Part shown: in pieces, positions 48,851 through 56,217 of the stretch | How positions within the stretch are numbered: the first letter of the stretch is position 1 | Layout of the letters: each line of letters starts with the position of its first letter | Source: Aurantiochytrium sp. KH105 | Lineage: Eukaryota > Sar > Bigyra > Thraustochytrida > Thraustochytriidae | Reading direction: 5' to 3' | Length of the DNA stretch: 64,000 bases | Assembly (NCBI GenBank): GCA_003116975.1 | Contig: BGKB01000037.1 | Coordinates: forward strand, 1 to 64,000 | Made by a program: the position numbers and the translations under genes | The notes under the pieces: model-generated | The model's database searches: none | What the model was told of the DNA's origin: nothing | The model's input: only the letters and a program-made list of their open reading frames with translations

Positions 48851-51040
48851 ATGACGGCTTCACCACGTAAAGAACTCTACGGCGGTGTCGACTTGCCCAA
48901 AACGACAAGCGTGCTTCGCACAACGCCGCGAGCACAGTTTGGAACAGCAGCTGTAAAAACACTCGCAAGACGCACGCCACGTAGAACACCGGCCTCGGCC
49001 TCGGCCTCGGCGAGCAGCGCCAGGGCTGAGCGGGGAGCCCTGACCCGTGAAGTCCCTACGCGAGAAGGCCCCTCCTCGCGAGGAGACGTTGCAACTCCAG
49101 ATGGGGGAGCAAAAGGAGCACCCCCAGCAGCAGCAAACGTAAACGCAAACGCAAACGCAAACGCAGGAAGTAGCGCAACGAGATCTCGTGGCATCGAGTA
49201 TAACGCGGGAGCGCCAGAAAGCGCCGTTGAGAACGTCATTGATAAAAAGGGTGGCCAAACGTACGCCAAAGGCAGGCTTCTCGGTAAAGGCGGATTTGCG
49301 AAATGCTACAAATTTCGTCATGTAACCAGCAAGCACGTTTGTGCAGGCAAGTGCGTCGAGAAGGCGTCCTTGAAAAAGGAGCGCGCGCGACGCAAGCTAC
49401 TCAGCGAGATCAAAATCCACCGATCGCTCTCGCACACGAACGTCGTTCGTTTTGAGCACTTTTTCGAGGACAAACACTTTGTCTACATCCTTCTCGAGTA
49501 TTGCAACAATCAAACACTCATGGAGCTTGTAAAGAGAAAGCGGCGCCTCAGTGAGTCGCACACGCGAACCATCATGCTTCAGCTTCTAGATGGCGTGGAG
49601 TACCTTCACAGCGTGAACGTGATTCATCGCGACCTCAAGCTGGGCAACATCTTCCTCACCGACGGTCTCAACGTCCGCATCGGCGACTTTGGGCTGGCTG
49701 CGCGCCTCGAACACAAGGAAGAAAAGAAGAAGACCATGTGCGGTACTCCAAACTACCTTGCCCCCGAGATCCTCGACGGAACGCTCGGCCACAGCTTCGA
49801 GGTCGACATTTGGTCCCTTGGCGTGATTCTCTACACGCTCTTGGTCGGCAAACCGCCCTTTGAAACGAAGAATGTCAAGCAGACCTACAAGCGCATTCAG
49901 GCGAATCTCTACGTGTTCCCTCGCGAGATTCCTCTCTCCGCAGAGGCCGTCGACCTGGTCCGCATCATCCTCAACAAGGATCCCAAGATGCGACCCTCAC
50001 TCAAGGCTATCCGCGCGCATCCCTTCTTCACCTGCGTTCACCCCCCTGCTGAACGTCGTCGCGACGACATCGCGAGTCCGTCGACTCGGACGTTTGCAGA
50101 CAAGGAGAATGCTGCTGCCTCTGGCAATCACGGCGCACGACCCCGCGCTTCACCCAAAATCAAGTCCCGTCACCAACTCGAACGTGAGCGCGCCGCGGAG
50201 CGCGGTCAATGGCTTCGTCAGTCACAGAACCCGCAGCACCCGCAGCAAGCTGACGTGCGCCGACTCGTCGCCGCGTCACCCAAGGTACCATCACCGTCGC
50301 CGCGGTCGAGTCGCCGGTCTTCCGAAGCATCGCCAATGTCTTTGGCATCGCCAACGACGCCCAAAGTACCCGCGCGATCCCCTGCCGAGGGCGCCCCACT
50401 CGTCGTGCAGAAATGGGTCGATTACACCTCTAAATACGGCTTGGGCTACCTCTTGCAAGGTGGTTTGGTAGGCGTGTATTTTAATGACGCCACCAAACTC
50501 ATTGTGGCGCCCAATCGATACGAATTCCAGTACTATGAGCGCGGCGCTCAAGACTTTGCGCGTCACACGCTGACGCGGTACCCCAAGGAGCTCCACAAAA
50601 AGGTTACGCTTGTCAAGCATTTCCGCAACTATCTCGAAAAGGAGCCTTCTGGAGACCCCGAGGCAACAGAGGCCGCAGCCGCGACCATGGCTGCAGCCGA
50701 GGCCATGGCGGCTTCGGCAGGTGGACGTTCCCCAGTTTCCCCCGAGCACTTTGAGGACGCGAGCGTCCCGCTGCCGTTTGTGAAGAAATGGGTACGCACG
50801 CGCCACGCCATTTTTTTCCGCCTCTCGAACCGCACCGTGCAGGTGGCATTCTTCGACGACACGCAAATCTTACTTTCTGCGCAGGCCAAACGTCTCACAT
50901 ACTTTGACAAGAGCCGTCAGGCACAAACACTGCCCATCGAGGAGGCGAAGATGGACGCAGAAATCTCCAAGCGTCTCCGCTACACCAAGGATGTCCTCCA
51001 CAAGCTCATTGCTGGTTCTTCGCCATCGCCGACTCGATAG
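48851..51040 (+). CDS. PLK1: Polo-like kinase
   Basis: 729 residues from ATG 48851. A disordered Arg/Ala/Ser/Asn leader is followed by a PLK-type kinase from about 137: LLGKGGFAKCYKF, HRDLKLGN (259-266), DFG (279-281) and TMCGTPNYLAPEIL with activation-loop Thr295. A Ser/Pro-rich linker leads to two polo boxes: PB1 from about 518 (VQKWVDYTSKYGLGYLL, with the conserved Trp) and PB2 about 640-715 (FVKKWVRTRHAIFFRLSN). PLKs drive mitotic entry, centrosome/basal-body and cytokinesis steps. PB2 reads FFDDTQILL where animal PLK1 has FFQDHTKLIL, so the His and Lys that grip phosphate are absent. The destruction-box-like RXXL content was not assessed. Confidence 0.94.
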   Translation: MTASPRKELYGGVDLPKTTSVLRTTPRAQFGTAAVKTLARRTPRRTPASASASASSARAERGALTREVPTREGPSSRGDVATPDGGAKGAPPAAANVNANANANAGSSATRSRGIEYNAGAPESAVENVIDKKGGQTYAKGRLLGKGGFAKCYKFRHVTSKHVCAGKCVEKASLKKERARRKLLSEIKIHRSLSHTNVVRFEHFFEDKHFVYILLEYCNNQTLMELVKRKRRLSESHTRTIMLQLLDGVEYLHSVNVIHRDLKLGNIFLTDGLNVRIGDFGLAARLEHKEEKKKTMCGTPNYLAPEILDGTLGHSFEVDIWSLGVILYTLLVGKPPFETKNVKQTYKRIQANLYVFPREIPLSAEAVDLVRIILNKDPKMRPSLKAIRAHPFFTCVHPPAERRRDDIASPSTRTFADKENAAASGNHGARPRASPKIKSRHQLERERAAERGQWLRQSQNPQHPQQADVRRLVAASPKVPSPSPRSSRRSSEASPMSLASPTTPKVPARSPAEGAPLVVQKWVDYTSKYGLGYLLQGGLVGVYFNDATKLIVAPNRYEFQYYERGAQDFARHTLTRYPKELHKKVTLVKHFRNYLEKEPSGDPEATEAAAATMAAAEAMAASAGGRSPVSPEHFEDASVPLPFVKKWVRTRHAIFFRLSNRTVQVAFFDDTQILLSAQAKRLTYFDKSRQAQTLPIEEAKMDAEISKRLRYTKDVLHKLIAGSSPSPTR

Positions 51041-51494: not shown

Positions 51495-51979
51495 CCTTTC
51501 CCTCCGAGCCGGTGCCCGGAGAACCCGCGGCTCGACCGCAACGCCTCGCTGTGCTGGCAGTAGGTATAGTATAGCAGACGACGATAGCAAATGAAACAAG
51601 AAATGAAAAGCGCTAGTAGGAACCTATACCTATACCCGCCAAGCAGAGCAAAACAAAGCGGACGAAGCAAACCCTCCTCGGCGAGCGGCCAGGCGACGGG
51701 CGCGGGCGCGAGCGCGAGCGCGGGCGCGAGCGCGGGCGGCGCGCGCGCGGCACCTTCCCGCGGCAGGCGGCAGGCGGCAGGCAGCAGGCCGCGCCGGCGA
51801 GCCCGGCGGGCCGCCGCGATCCGCGTGCGCGGGGAAGCCCTGGCGCCGGCGCAGCTGGCGGACGAGAGGAAGAAATCTCCGCGGTGCAGACGCACGGCAC
51901 AGACCATACAACCCGGGGCGCAGGGCGGGGCCGAGCGGCAGGGCGCGCGGGCGGAGGCGGCGGCGGCGCACAGGGGAAG

Positions 51980-54286
51980 ATGGAGGAGGGACGCAGGGAG
52001 CGCGAGAAGCGGCAGCAGCAGCTTGAGCAGCAGGGAAAACCGCCCATGTGCGACTCTGCTCGACGCATTCGCGGCAAAAACCCCGGCCGCATACCCATCA
52101 TCTGCAGGGCCGACACGGAAAAGGGGCTCCCGGGGTGGCGCACGAAACGGATTAAGTTTCTGGTTTCCGATAAACTCAACGTGAGCCAGTTTCGCCGCTT
52201 CGTACGGTCCAATCTCATTAACACCTTGGCCAGACCGGTCCCAGGCGACGGCAAGCTCAAGGCTCCCAAATTGCAACTCTTTCTCGAGTCAGGCGCCGAG
52301 CTCACCGATGATACACTGAGCATTACAGATCTTGACGCGCTCCACTGCGACGAAGACGGCTTCCTCTACTTGACGTACATCACCAAGCTGTCCTCTAAGA
52401 TGGATGTGGTTGTCCACCCGGATGATGACTCATCTCCAGACGGCGCAAAGGATTCGCAACTTCAAAGTAGGCCACAAAACGAAGCAGGTGAACCCGCTTC
52501 ACGCCAAACTCCCCCGGAAGAGAACCTGAATCAGATCAAGGAACCGGAACAGCATCAAGAGCCTCCGATGGACGAAGAAAAGCACGTAGACAAGCCAGTT
52601 CCTCAAAGCGCTGACAACGAATCGCAGGACCAAAGTCAAGAAGACAATACGCCCAAAGTGGAAGACCGAAATGTGAAAGAGCAAGAAGGCGAAGAACAAG
52701 ATGACAACGAGCCGGTCAAAGCGCCTGCGCAAGAGGATCAAGTAGAGGGTGAAGGAGCAGAAGAAAGCGAGCCGGCTTCGTCGGGCCTTGAAGCGACCGT
52801 TGCCTCGCTCTTGCAAGATATCGTCAGCGACGCTGTTCAAGATTCGCTCGAGGCGCCTCAGACTCAAGAGCTCTCAACGTCCCCAGTCACAGCCGAGAGC
52901 GAAGAAGCATCTGACATGGCAGACACGGCCCGTGCGGAACCATCGACATCGACCGGAGAGGCGCCAGAGCCGCAAACCCTGCCGTCTGCGACCTCGAACG
53001 CGAGCGTTGCCGGCGAGAGTGACAAAGCGAGCGAAATGCCCGCATCAGCCCAGCCTGTTGAATGCCCTGCCACGGCGCTCGATGCTGATGACCTCTACAA
53101 GTCGCCCGTGTTCGCGCCGAAGAAGGCTACCGACAGCGCCCAGACTTCGTCTGTGCCTGCCTTTGATCTCGGAGCACCCTCTTCGCAAGACAGTAGCACT
53201 CAGAATAGCGCCCGCGAACACTCGCCATCCCCGTCCCCATCCCCCTCGCCAGAGCAAACGTCCTCTCCTTTGTATGGCGCAGCTGGGCCGTCCAGCAATG
53301 TAACCATGAACGTCGCAGGCTTGACTGATTCGATGGCCTCGGCTGAAGCGGAAACAGAACGACGTTTGTTGTCTGATGACCGCAGCCCGAACGAAGGTGC
53401 AGACAACGACGACGTCGATGACGATGAGGAACTCCTCAAGGGTGGTTTTACTGGATTCGTCTCGATGATTTTGAGTGACGACAGCAAGGCTACAGCGGAT
53501 GGACAGTCATCCTCGGCAGACGCGAGGTCGCAGGCTCCCATGCTGCTGTCGCACATGCGTCAGCAGCAACTTTTGTTGCAACAGCAGCATCAACAACGGT
53601 ACCAGCATGGCGACCCATCCTTGGGTTTTCCATCGCAGCACGAGATGGCCCGGCAACAAGATCATCTTGCCGGTGATCTAAACATGATGTATCACGAAGG
53701 CGGGATTGCAACGAACCATCGGACCATCGACCACGCTCGGGAAGAGCCTCACAGTATGCACGGCGGTATGGGCCTAGGACCAGCAAGACCTGACGATCTT
53801 GCGGAAGAAGATTCGGATGATGACGATGAATGGATTGATGTCGACTCGTCAGCCCCCGTGGACATGTCCAAGCCTTCACTCAAGGATATTGGAAGGGCGT
53901 ATCTGATGCGCAAAATTGAGGAGCTCGAGCTGCAAAAGGTTGTCAACAAGGAGACGTTTACCTCTAGTGCCGCGTCATTACGCCAGCTTGCGTCAAACAT
54001 TGTCCAGAACGCCTCTCTCGAGCTCGAAAACCGGAATCTTCTCCCTGGCGCGGGCGCAACGGGTCGTGGGGATCTCTGGGATCTCCCGAGGCGGGCACAG
54101 GCTGCCGCTGCCTTCGCGTCGAACGCGGCATCGGATGTCTCGGCCAGAGCTGCAGCTGCTGCTGGCCTTGACGCCGCTGTGAGATCTCAAGACGTCGGCA
54201 ACCTTGCAGATGGAGATGAGGATGGTGATTGGACTTGCGTAAATTTTGATGGTGGTGACGAGTCTTTTGGTGCTCGTTTCCTTTGA
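51980..54286 (+). CDS. ATG8-like domain fused to a long acidic tail with LIR-like motifs
   Basis: 768 residues from ATG 51980. Residues about 26-133 look like an ATG8/LC3/GABARAP fold: RIRGKNPGRIPIICRA (cf. RKKYPDRVPVIVEKA), KRIKFLVSDKLNVSQFRRFV (cf. KKYLVPSDLTVGQFYFLI), then DEDGFLYLTY (124-133), the ATG8 hallmark. ATG8 proteins are cut after a Gly shortly beyond this motif and joined to phosphatidylethanolamine; here ITKLSSKMD follows with no Gly, then 630 residues of acidic, Ser/Pro/Gln-rich sequence. The tail has two LC3-interacting-like motifs, DDDDEWIDV (W618) and DEDGDWTCV (W751). An insert (LARPVPGDGKLKA) lies between strands. ATG8 kinship is strong by motif order; function is unknown. 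Confidence 0.8.
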   Translation: MEEGRREREKRQQQLEQQGKPPMCDSARRIRGKNPGRIPIICRADTEKGLPGWRTKRIKFLVSDKLNVSQFRRFVRSNLINTLARPVPGDGKLKAPKLQLFLESGAELTDDTLSITDLDALHCDEDGFLYLTYITKLSSKMDVVVHPDDDSSPDGAKDSQLQSRPQNEAGEPASRQTPPEENLNQIKEPEQHQEPPMDEEKHVDKPVPQSADNESQDQSQEDNTPKVEDRNVKEQEGEEQDDNEPVKAPAQEDQVEGEGAEESEPASSGLEATVASLLQDIVSDAVQDSLEAPQTQELSTSPVTAESEEASDMADTARAEPSTSTGEAPEPQTLPSATSNASVAGESDKASEMPASAQPVECPATALDADDLYKSPVFAPKKATDSAQTSSVPAFDLGAPSSQDSSTQNSAREHSPSPSPSPSPEQTSSPLYGAAGPSSNVTMNVAGLTDSMASAEAETERRLLSDDRSPNEGADNDDVDDDEELLKGGFTGFVSMILSDDSKATADGQSSSADARSQAPMLLSHMRQQQLLLQQQHQQRYQHGDPSLGFPSQHEMARQQDHLAGDLNMMYHEGGIATNHRTIDHAREEPHSMHGGMGLGPARPDDLAEEDSDDDDEWIDVDSSAPVDMSKPSLKDIGRAYLMRKIEELELQKVVNKETFTSSAASLRQLASNIVQNASLELENRNLLPGAGATGRGDLWDLPRRAQAAAAFASNAASDVSARAAAAAGLDAAVRSQDVGNLADGDEDGDWTCVNFDGGDESFGARFL

Positions 54287-54686: not shown

Positions 54687-55997
54687 CTACAAGTCCCATT
54701 TTTCTCGTCCACATGTGAACAAGGGCGGCCCTTGATCCGTAATATCATTCGCTGCAAAAAGACAGCCCTGGATGATAATTCCTAACACATTGGCCAGAGC
54801 TGTCCCTGTTGTCGCCGCCCCAGCCGCCGAGGCCATCGCGAACTCTTGCGCTCCGCTAGGAAGCCTCTGTTCCATGAGCAGCATGGCGTGCACATAGATG
54901 GCACCGCCAAACATTCCCACAAGCAGGCAGAGTATTAGCACGGATGCATTCCACCAGACGTGAGCAACTGCATCCCAAATGAAAAAGACGAGCAAGCCAA
55001 ATTGGAGCAGAGGAATCACCCAAAGCTGCCGCAAGGAAAGGCGAAAAAGACCACCCGAAGATCGCGAGAGGAAAACGCCAACCTGGTAGAGCCAATTCGA
55101 GTACAAGTAAAACTTGTCGCGGGCTCCCTTATCATGCACAGGAAAACCCATGGCTGCCCAGGTCCCAGACTGCATAGCATACTCTGCAATATACACGACA
55201 AAGAGAGGCACCGTGAACGGCCATAGCGAGGAAAAGAGACGAAGGCGCTCCCCAAAACTCGAAGGGTCAGCGAGATCGACAATTGGCGTCGTCGTCGTCG
55301 TCAACATGGGCGTGCTCGTCGTCCCTTGCACACAATCTGCGCTGTCGTCATTCTCGTCACCCATTCGCAGGTACGAGTTTGCACAAGCCTCAGAGAGACG
55401 ACCATTTGTCTCAACGAAACAAGGGGCCTCGTCGTTTTCAACGTCATCATCAACGACTTGGAGGGAAGTCTGCGTACGATACAAGACGCCAAAGTAGACC
55501 ATGACAAACGCGAGGGGAAGGACGTTTGCCAAAAGCAAGGTTGCGTTGAATGTGAGTCCGCACAAGTCGACGAAGAGGGCTTTCCAGGCGTAGCCGAAGA
55601 TGCCCGCGAACCCGGTTCCGCTCGACCAGGCCGTGATCTCGGTGCGGCCGTAAAAGGAGGTGCGGGCCAGCATGGACGCCTCGCCGAGGCCTTGCGCAAA
55701 GGAGCCCACCATGACGCCCAACAGGCGAAGCCACACGGGCTTTGCGAGCGCGACGAGCGAGACCCCCGTCGCGAAAGACGCCCCGCACAGCAGCACGCGG
55801 CGGCGATACGCGACGCGGTGGAACCAGTACGGCCCGCTCACCGTGACGACCAGGTTCGGCAGGTTGTTGCAGAGGTAGATGACGCCGACGCCGCCCGGCA
55901 CGATGAGCGTCGCGCCGGCATTGAGCACCACGAAGATGCTGTTGTTGAGCAGGCCCAGCAGCCAGAACGCCGCCGCCGCGCCGCCGGGCCCCGCCAT
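54687..55997 (-). CDS. CLN3: CLN3/battenin family lysosomal membrane protein
   Basis: 436 residues from ATG 55997 (human CLN3 has 438). The opening FWLLGLLNNSIFVVLNAGA matches the CLN3 start. Other family stretches are FVVYIAEYAMQSGTW, LYQVGVFLSRSSGGLFR and GGAIYVHAMLLMEQRLPSGA. About eleven hydrophobic segments are visible, with an acidic hydrophilic loop (about 205-260) in the middle. CLN3 proteins sit in lysosome or vacuole membranes and affect pH, amino-acid and glycerophosphodiester handling. An open frame upstream to 56108 begins at TTG and is not used. It is divergent with the unknown gene at 56218. Confidence 0.92.
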   Translation of the reverse strand: MAGPGGAAAAFWLLGLLNNSIFVVLNAGATLIVPGGVGVIYLCNNLPNLVVTVSGPYWFHRVAYRRRVLLCGASFATGVSLVALAKPVWLRLLGVMVGSFAQGLGEASMLARTSFYGRTEITAWSSGTGFAGIFGYAWKALFVDLCGLTFNATLLLANVLPLAFVMVYFGVLYRTQTSLQVVDDDVENDEAPCFVETNGRLSEACANSYLRMGDENDDSADCVQGTTSTPMLTTTTTPIVDLADPSSFGERLRLFSSLWPFTVPLFVVYIAEYAMQSGTWAAMGFPVHDKGARDKFYLYSNWLYQVGVFLSRSSGGLFRLSLRQLWVIPLLQFGLLVFFIWDAVAHVWWNASVLILCLLVGMFGGAIYVHAMLLMEQRLPSGAQEFAMASAAGAATTGTALANVLGIIIQGCLFAANDITDQGPPLFTCGREKWDL

Positions 55998-56217
55998 GCG
56001 CCAGGTCTGCGGCCGGCCTCGGCTCCGCTTGCTCGCTTGCTTGCTTGCATGCAGTAGCTGGGCTGCTGCAGCAGCTCGGGCGCCGCGTCGAGGTTCAAAC
56101 TCGTTCAAACCGATCGATTCAAACCGATCGATTCAAACTGAGGTTCAAACTGAGGTTCAAACTGCGCGCAGATCCGCTTGCCGCGCGCGCGGGCCGGGCC
56201 GAGGGGGGCTGGGCGCT
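55998..56217. promoter_or_regulatory. 220-base bidirectional promoter, CLN3 (-) and unknown membrane protein (+)
   Basis: The two ATGs are 220 bases apart. The region holds six TTCAAAC words (described separately), TTGCTTGCTTGCTTGCTTGC near 56,031-56,048 and GCTGCTGCAGCAGC at about 56,062-56,076. Shared control is inferred from spacing. Confidence 0.6.
56094..56162. repeat. Six-copy TTCAAAC array in the shared promoter
   Basis: TTCAAAC begins at 56094, 56104, 56118, 56132, 56144 and 56156, with spacings of 10, 14, 14, 12 and 12 bases. Intervening words are CGATCGA and TGAGG. All copies point the same way. Confidence 0.9.

Follow-up and report, generated by a model that had tools for sequence, protein, structure and literature searches.

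We identified a single gene, at positions 51980..54286 on the plus strand of the window (the whole 64,000-nucleotide stretch of DNA analysed), whose predicted product is a fusion of an ATG8-family domain, lacking the conjugation glycine, and a long extension in which two candidate LIR motifs lie. Its open reading frame encodes 768 residues and starts at the ATG at 51980, the first in-frame ATG downstream of an in-frame stop at 51617; the frame, its start, its length and the positions of the two motif tryptophans, W618 and W751, are all as given in the original prediction. The N-terminal ATG8-like domain occupies residues 26-135 (52055..52384) and contains the hallmark DEDGFLYLTY (residues 124-133, 52349..52378), past which the chain runs on for 635 residues. 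On the same strand there follow a linker (52406..53419, residues 143 to 480 or so) that is acidic and for the most part unstructured, as judged from its charge blocks and a low-confidence AlphaFold2 (AF2) model; LIR-like motif 1, SDDDDEWIDVD (residues 612-622, with W618; 53813..53845); a helix-rich part (about residues 634-736, 53879..54187), with low-confidence AF2 helices and few changes between the two copies of the gene described below; and LIR-like motif 2, GDEDGDWTCVN (residues 745-755, with W751; 54212..54244). The earlier description of the extension as an acidic tail holds for its overall charge, the strongest acidic blocks being at residues 145-336 and 577-624, but not for residues 625-720, which are about neutral, and the low-confidence AF2 model places helices from about residue 480 on.

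The gene lies downstream of a gene for a Polo-like kinase (window 48881-51037, plus strand), with a kinase domain and two POLO_box stretches, and directly beside a convergent CLN3-family gene (window 54690-56108, minus strand; 260.9 bits). The window (positions 1-64000) holds 27 ORFs of at least 330 residues. Eight other long ORFs were scanned against Pfam: three were without a match, and the five that matched were of ankyrin/EF-hand, LRR/IQ, WD40, Myb/Cef splicing factor and DNA polymerase beta/lambda type.

The homology of the domain to ATG8 is firm at the level of sequence, resting on the combined Pfam, phmmer, hhalign and shuffle scores. The Pfam ATG8 model (PF02991), the check that had been proposed for the predicted ATG8-like domain, matched residues 26-135 at E 5.5e-8, its 33.4 bits exceeding the cut-off of 27, which substantiates the assignment; it scored 36.2 bits at the domain in a six-frame search of the genome, and no Pfam family besides it matched the 768-residue protein at E up to 1. 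A phmmer search against PDB chains, with E limited to 1, returned 69 distinct sequences (best E 6e-5), and the 60 of these 69 that were listed were all ATG8-family proteins (LC3, GABARAP-type, Atg8 or lgg-2) or chimeras containing one. An HMM made from eight ATG8 stretches gave residues 21-142 a score of 50.3 bits, the top score among 5000 shuffles being 7.3, and hhalign matched the domain (a query of two copies, effectively one sequence) to the profile of the eight stretches with a probability of 98.7. Compared with the canonical ATG8 of the same genome, the domain has 37% identity and a 12-residue insertion ahead of the third strand; the stretch from PDB entry 4eoy has an insertion at the same place. 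As predicted, a processing glycine is missing: residues 134-154 contain no glycine, and the first one past Y133, the last residue of the hallmark, is residue 155. In conjugatable ATG8 proteins this glycine serves processing by ATG4 and lipidation, the latter by way of ATG7 and ATG3. Because it is missing, the protein, which carries an ATG8-family domain, is apparently no conjugatable ATG8 modifier. Two other identities were considered and rejected, namely, an ATG12-like protein, since a search with PF04110 at E 0.01 picked out ATG12 at two places and also the canonical ATG8, but not the fusion locus, and a derivative of NBR1, since Pfam gave no FW, ZZ, UBA or PB1 match in the 768-residue protein.

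The assembly (76 Mb in 367 contigs) contains a second copy of the gene on contig C269, the copy described above being on contig C37. The C269 copy also has 768 codons, with 42 amino-acid differences and no coding indel, and over the stretch compared, window 44.3-64 kb, C269 aligns collinearly in three BLAST pieces of 94-96% identity; C37 and C269 appear to be related as a second haplotype would be, or as recent duplicate chromosomes (homeologues). The pair provides a built-in test for coding constraint. Between the copies the 2304 aligned bases of the CDS have no gap run, whereas the 5' flank has 18 (1454 bases) and the 3' flank four (1487 bases). Substitutions were counted by the Nei-Gojobori method over segments whose borders we picked, and dN/dS between the two copies is 0.25 for the whole protein. 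Residues 1-20 have three nonsynonymous and no synonymous changes, and residues 21-142, with the domain, have none and six, respectively. Over residues 143-635 we counted 36 nonsynonymous changes at 1145 sites and 38 synonymous changes at 334 sites, a nonsynonymous deficit with a Fisher P of 3e-8, and over residues 636-768 three nonsynonymous and four synonymous changes; the difference in constraint between domain and tail has a P of 0.03 in this two-copy comparison. From the gap-free CDS and the deficit of nonsynonymous changes we infer that domain and tail are translated as one unit and that each of them is constrained, more strongly so in the domain. Judged by the same counts, constraint along the protein is uneven: there is no nonsynonymous change in the segments 481-540, 511-570 and 631-690, and there are eight nonsynonymous and no synonymous changes in residues 571-630, which hold motif 1. 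That two adjacent genes, or an assembly join, have been read as a single frame is very improbable, as the same 768-codon frame stands without an indel on a separate contig that is collinear over window 44.3-64 kb, with too few nonsynonymous changes in domain and tail alike; we rejected the artefact on these grounds, and the claim of one continuous gene, for which transcripts separating domain from tail would have been the counter-evidence, is upheld by the second copy.

To find LIR-like sites we scanned for [WFY]xx[LIV] with at least three acidic residues among the four preceding ones, a rule that was fixed after the motifs had been seen. In residues 143-768 the rule has two matches, W618 and W751, both acidic WxxV, so the two motifs of the original prediction conform to it. 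Among 20,000 shuffles of the tail composition, at least two such tryptophan sites arose once and at least two such aromatic sites 34 times. An acidic context of this kind is found at 7 of the 623 tail positions, both motifs counted, and a control that preserves acidic clumps gave P values of about 4e-4 for two of the three tryptophans and 0.017 for two of the 18 aromatics; the motif excess is thus modest when all aromatics are counted. Motif 1 differs between the copies at its +2 position (D620N in the C269 copy), and motif 2 is identical in both.

The pocket positions (HP1 and HP2) were taken as listed for LC3B in PMC7615515 and mapped to the domain through the LC3A stretch from the PDB phmmer search, with the canonical ATG8 of the genome as the reference. 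Six of the seven HP1 positions and two of the six HP2 positions are identical between the domain and this reference; among the HP2 changes in the domain are a Ser in place of Pro and a Phe in place of Val. Of the HP1 positions, the first (LC3 residue 19) is placed differently by two alignments and is changed in both. Identity in the pocket (8/13) exceeds that in the other aligned columns (33/109) with a P of 0.029. When the comparison is confined to positions conserved in the eight-sequence profile, it becomes 8/13 versus 24/65 (P 0.09), and with invariant positions only, 5/6 versus 5/10 (P 0.22). These counts suggest that the pocket is kept in outline, without demonstrable favour by selection over other conserved positions.

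Structure prediction with AF2 was run without an alignment, on residues 1-146 and on the full length. The ATG8 family has a ubiquitin-like fold to which two N-terminal helices belong. The model of residues 1-146 (mean pLDDT 44) has one N-terminal helix followed by strand-strand-helix-strand-helix-strand, an order of elements that agrees with ATG8 at this pLDDT and without an alignment. In the full-length model (mean pLDDT 42) the domain region reads helix-strand-helix-strand-strand-strand, an order unlike that of ATG8; elsewhere this low-confidence model shows coil over residues 143-480, apart from a helix at 270-287, helices within 482-576, and further helices at 634-655, 664-686, 696-700 and 702-736. 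A Foldseek search of PDB with the poor domain model (pLDDT 44) gave no match at E 0.001 and 464 with the limit raised to 10, and no ATG8 protein was among the best 50 of the 464. The AF2 and Foldseek results, at the quality of these models, speak neither for nor against an ATG8 fold.

The canonical ATG8 is a separate gene (on contig C28), at one place in the genome listing and with its glycine; it reads DKDGFLYVTYSGESTFG, the glycine stretch being SGESTFG, and then 18 more residues. By sequence comparison, the fusion brings an extra ATG8-family domain, apparently non-conjugatable and set in a long protein, beside this normal ATG8. ATG4 has two places, L008 (G000:C36) and L009 (C17), both frames ending in GGDEFVLL, so that an acidic, LIR-like FxxL forms the C-terminal end. 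This end resembles the C-terminal LIR of human ATG4B. ATG12 has two places, the ATG3-family E2 two places, with a further weak match interrupted by two stops, and NBR1-type FW domains six places. The matches to ATG4, FW domains, ATG12 and the ATG3 family come in pairs, like the fusion gene. Read by eye, the L013 frame of the FW-domain set has an FW domain preceded by Cys-rich zinc-finger-like stretches, and its end is UBA-like. Scanned for acidic LIR-like sites, ATG4 showed its C terminus and one further site, and the NBR1-type L013 and L014, as partial frames of 640 residues, showed none. Canonical ATG8, ATG4, the ATG3 family, ATG12 and the FW-domain proteins are all possible partners of the fusion protein. 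As further observations on this genome, a second FW-domain (N_BRCA1_IG) pair, L015 and L016 (G000:C189 and C29), has long His/Gly/Pro-rich low-complexity stretches whose repeat number differs between the copies, and pieces of a PfaA-like polyketide synthase score up to 930 bits, below the family cut-off of 1010, with a model that also gives weaker matches in 11 of the 14 control genomes; these pieces, taken with the intron-poor layout, would point to a thraustochytrid.

Relatives were sought in several collections. A protein search of the own genome returned the protein itself, its C269 copy and, at E 0.0017, the canonical ATG8; one more match, on C9, is at chance level (E 0.77, with one internal stop). 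No confirmed relative was found in viral contigs with the domain, the canonical ATG8 or the C-terminal 308 residues as queries, or in bacterial and archaeal genome contigs with the full protein or the canonical ATG8; these negatives are uninformative for other eukaryotes, because the canonical ATG8 found nothing there either. The C-terminal 299 residues matched none of 177,635 PDB sequences at E up to 5. Among the open-access papers listed, by title and start of abstract, none describes an ATG8 fusion of such a layout, and the statement that no named family has it is uncontradicted in that literature; the novelty of the fusion, relative to the same literature, is provisional.

With ATG8/LC3/GABARAP proteins (PF02991) the fusion shares a homologous domain, the DEDGFLY hallmark, the RIP[IV]I strand and most HP1 residues; however, it differs from them in having no conjugation-site glycine, in its 12-residue insertion and in the 635 residues past the hallmark. 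Autophagy receptors of the p62/NBR1 type have PB1 and, for cargo binding, a UBA, ZZ or FW domain. Like these LIR-bearing receptors, the fusion has an N-terminal domain and, after it, a long and partly disordered chain that contains acidic Wxx[LIV] motifs, but that N-terminal domain is ATG8-like and the protein is without a PB1, ZZ, FW or UBA match; the NBR1-type FW-domain proteins of this genome are separate genes. The UBL shuttle and chaperone proteins ubiquilin and BAG6 have an N-terminal ubiquitin-like domain and then a long low-complexity chain, a layout like that of the fusion; the fusion differs from them in that its single Pfam match is to ATG8.

We tentatively favour, at somewhat below an even chance, the reading that the protein serves selective autophagy as an adaptor or scaffold. 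The LIRs of its tail would dock on lipidated canonical ATG8, its N-terminal domain, with the LIR pocket largely kept, would hold LIR-bearing partners, and the protein would bridge or multiply LIR contacts while itself never being lipidated. An ATG8 homology over the curated cut-off and far over the shuffles, a single translated unit (no gap runs in the CDS, P 3e-8 over residues 143-635) and the presence of possible partners in the same genome are consistent with this role. The original interpretation, a non-lipidated scaffold that could bind true ATG8 or fold back on its own LIRs, is supported in part. The pocket argues both ways: HP1 is kept at six of seven positions and the comparison with all columns gives P 0.029, but P rises to 0.09 against conserved and 0.22 against invariant positions, and HP2 has lost a Pro (to Ser) and a Val (to Phe). 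Further points against an adaptor are the eight nonsynonymous and zero synonymous changes in residues 571-630 around motif 1, the modest all-aromatic motif excess (P 0.017), the lack of an acidic LIR-like site in L013 and L014 (partial frames of 640 residues), the poor quality of both AF2 models and the best 50 Foldseek matches without an ATG8 protein.

A rival reading is that the domain serves an interaction independent of autophagy and that the Trp motifs are acidic sites which arose incidentally, most of the tail being disordered. We consider this possible, if on the doubtful side: the 37% identity to canonical ATG8, the lost glycine, the 12-residue insertion, the modest all-aromatic motif statistics, the fast change around motif 1 and a pocket unfavoured relative to other conserved positions all agree with it, whereas the largely kept HP1 positions, the unchanged motif 2 and the absence of any amino-acid change in residues 21-142 do not. 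Self-binding, in which the ATG8-like domain would be occupied by LIRs of the tail, either of the same chain folded back (autoinhibition) or of another molecule, head to tail, is rather unlikely in our judgement; the latter arrangement would make a self-assembling scaffold, as p62 assembles with itself through its PB1 domain. Here the pocket and the LIR halves do lie in one chain, with about 480 residues, much of them coil in the low-confidence model, between the domain and motif 1; but canonical ATG8 is an equally plausible target of the motifs, and the copies diverge fast around motif 1.

ATG8 is normally a small modifier that is attached to lipid. In the fusion, both halves of the ATG8-LIR interaction would be present in one chain, as two LIRs and an ATG8-like pocket that is fixed and never lipidated, and the protein might self-assemble or self-inhibit, and cross-link receptors and ATG8 membranes without conjugation, a proposal to which we give a rather low probability. 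If true, it would mean that a pocket-LIR pair can be used without conjugation, the ATG8 domain being built into a long protein at the level of the genome, and mutants of the pocket and of the LIRs would offer a simple way to test what ATG8 binding does apart from membrane attachment.
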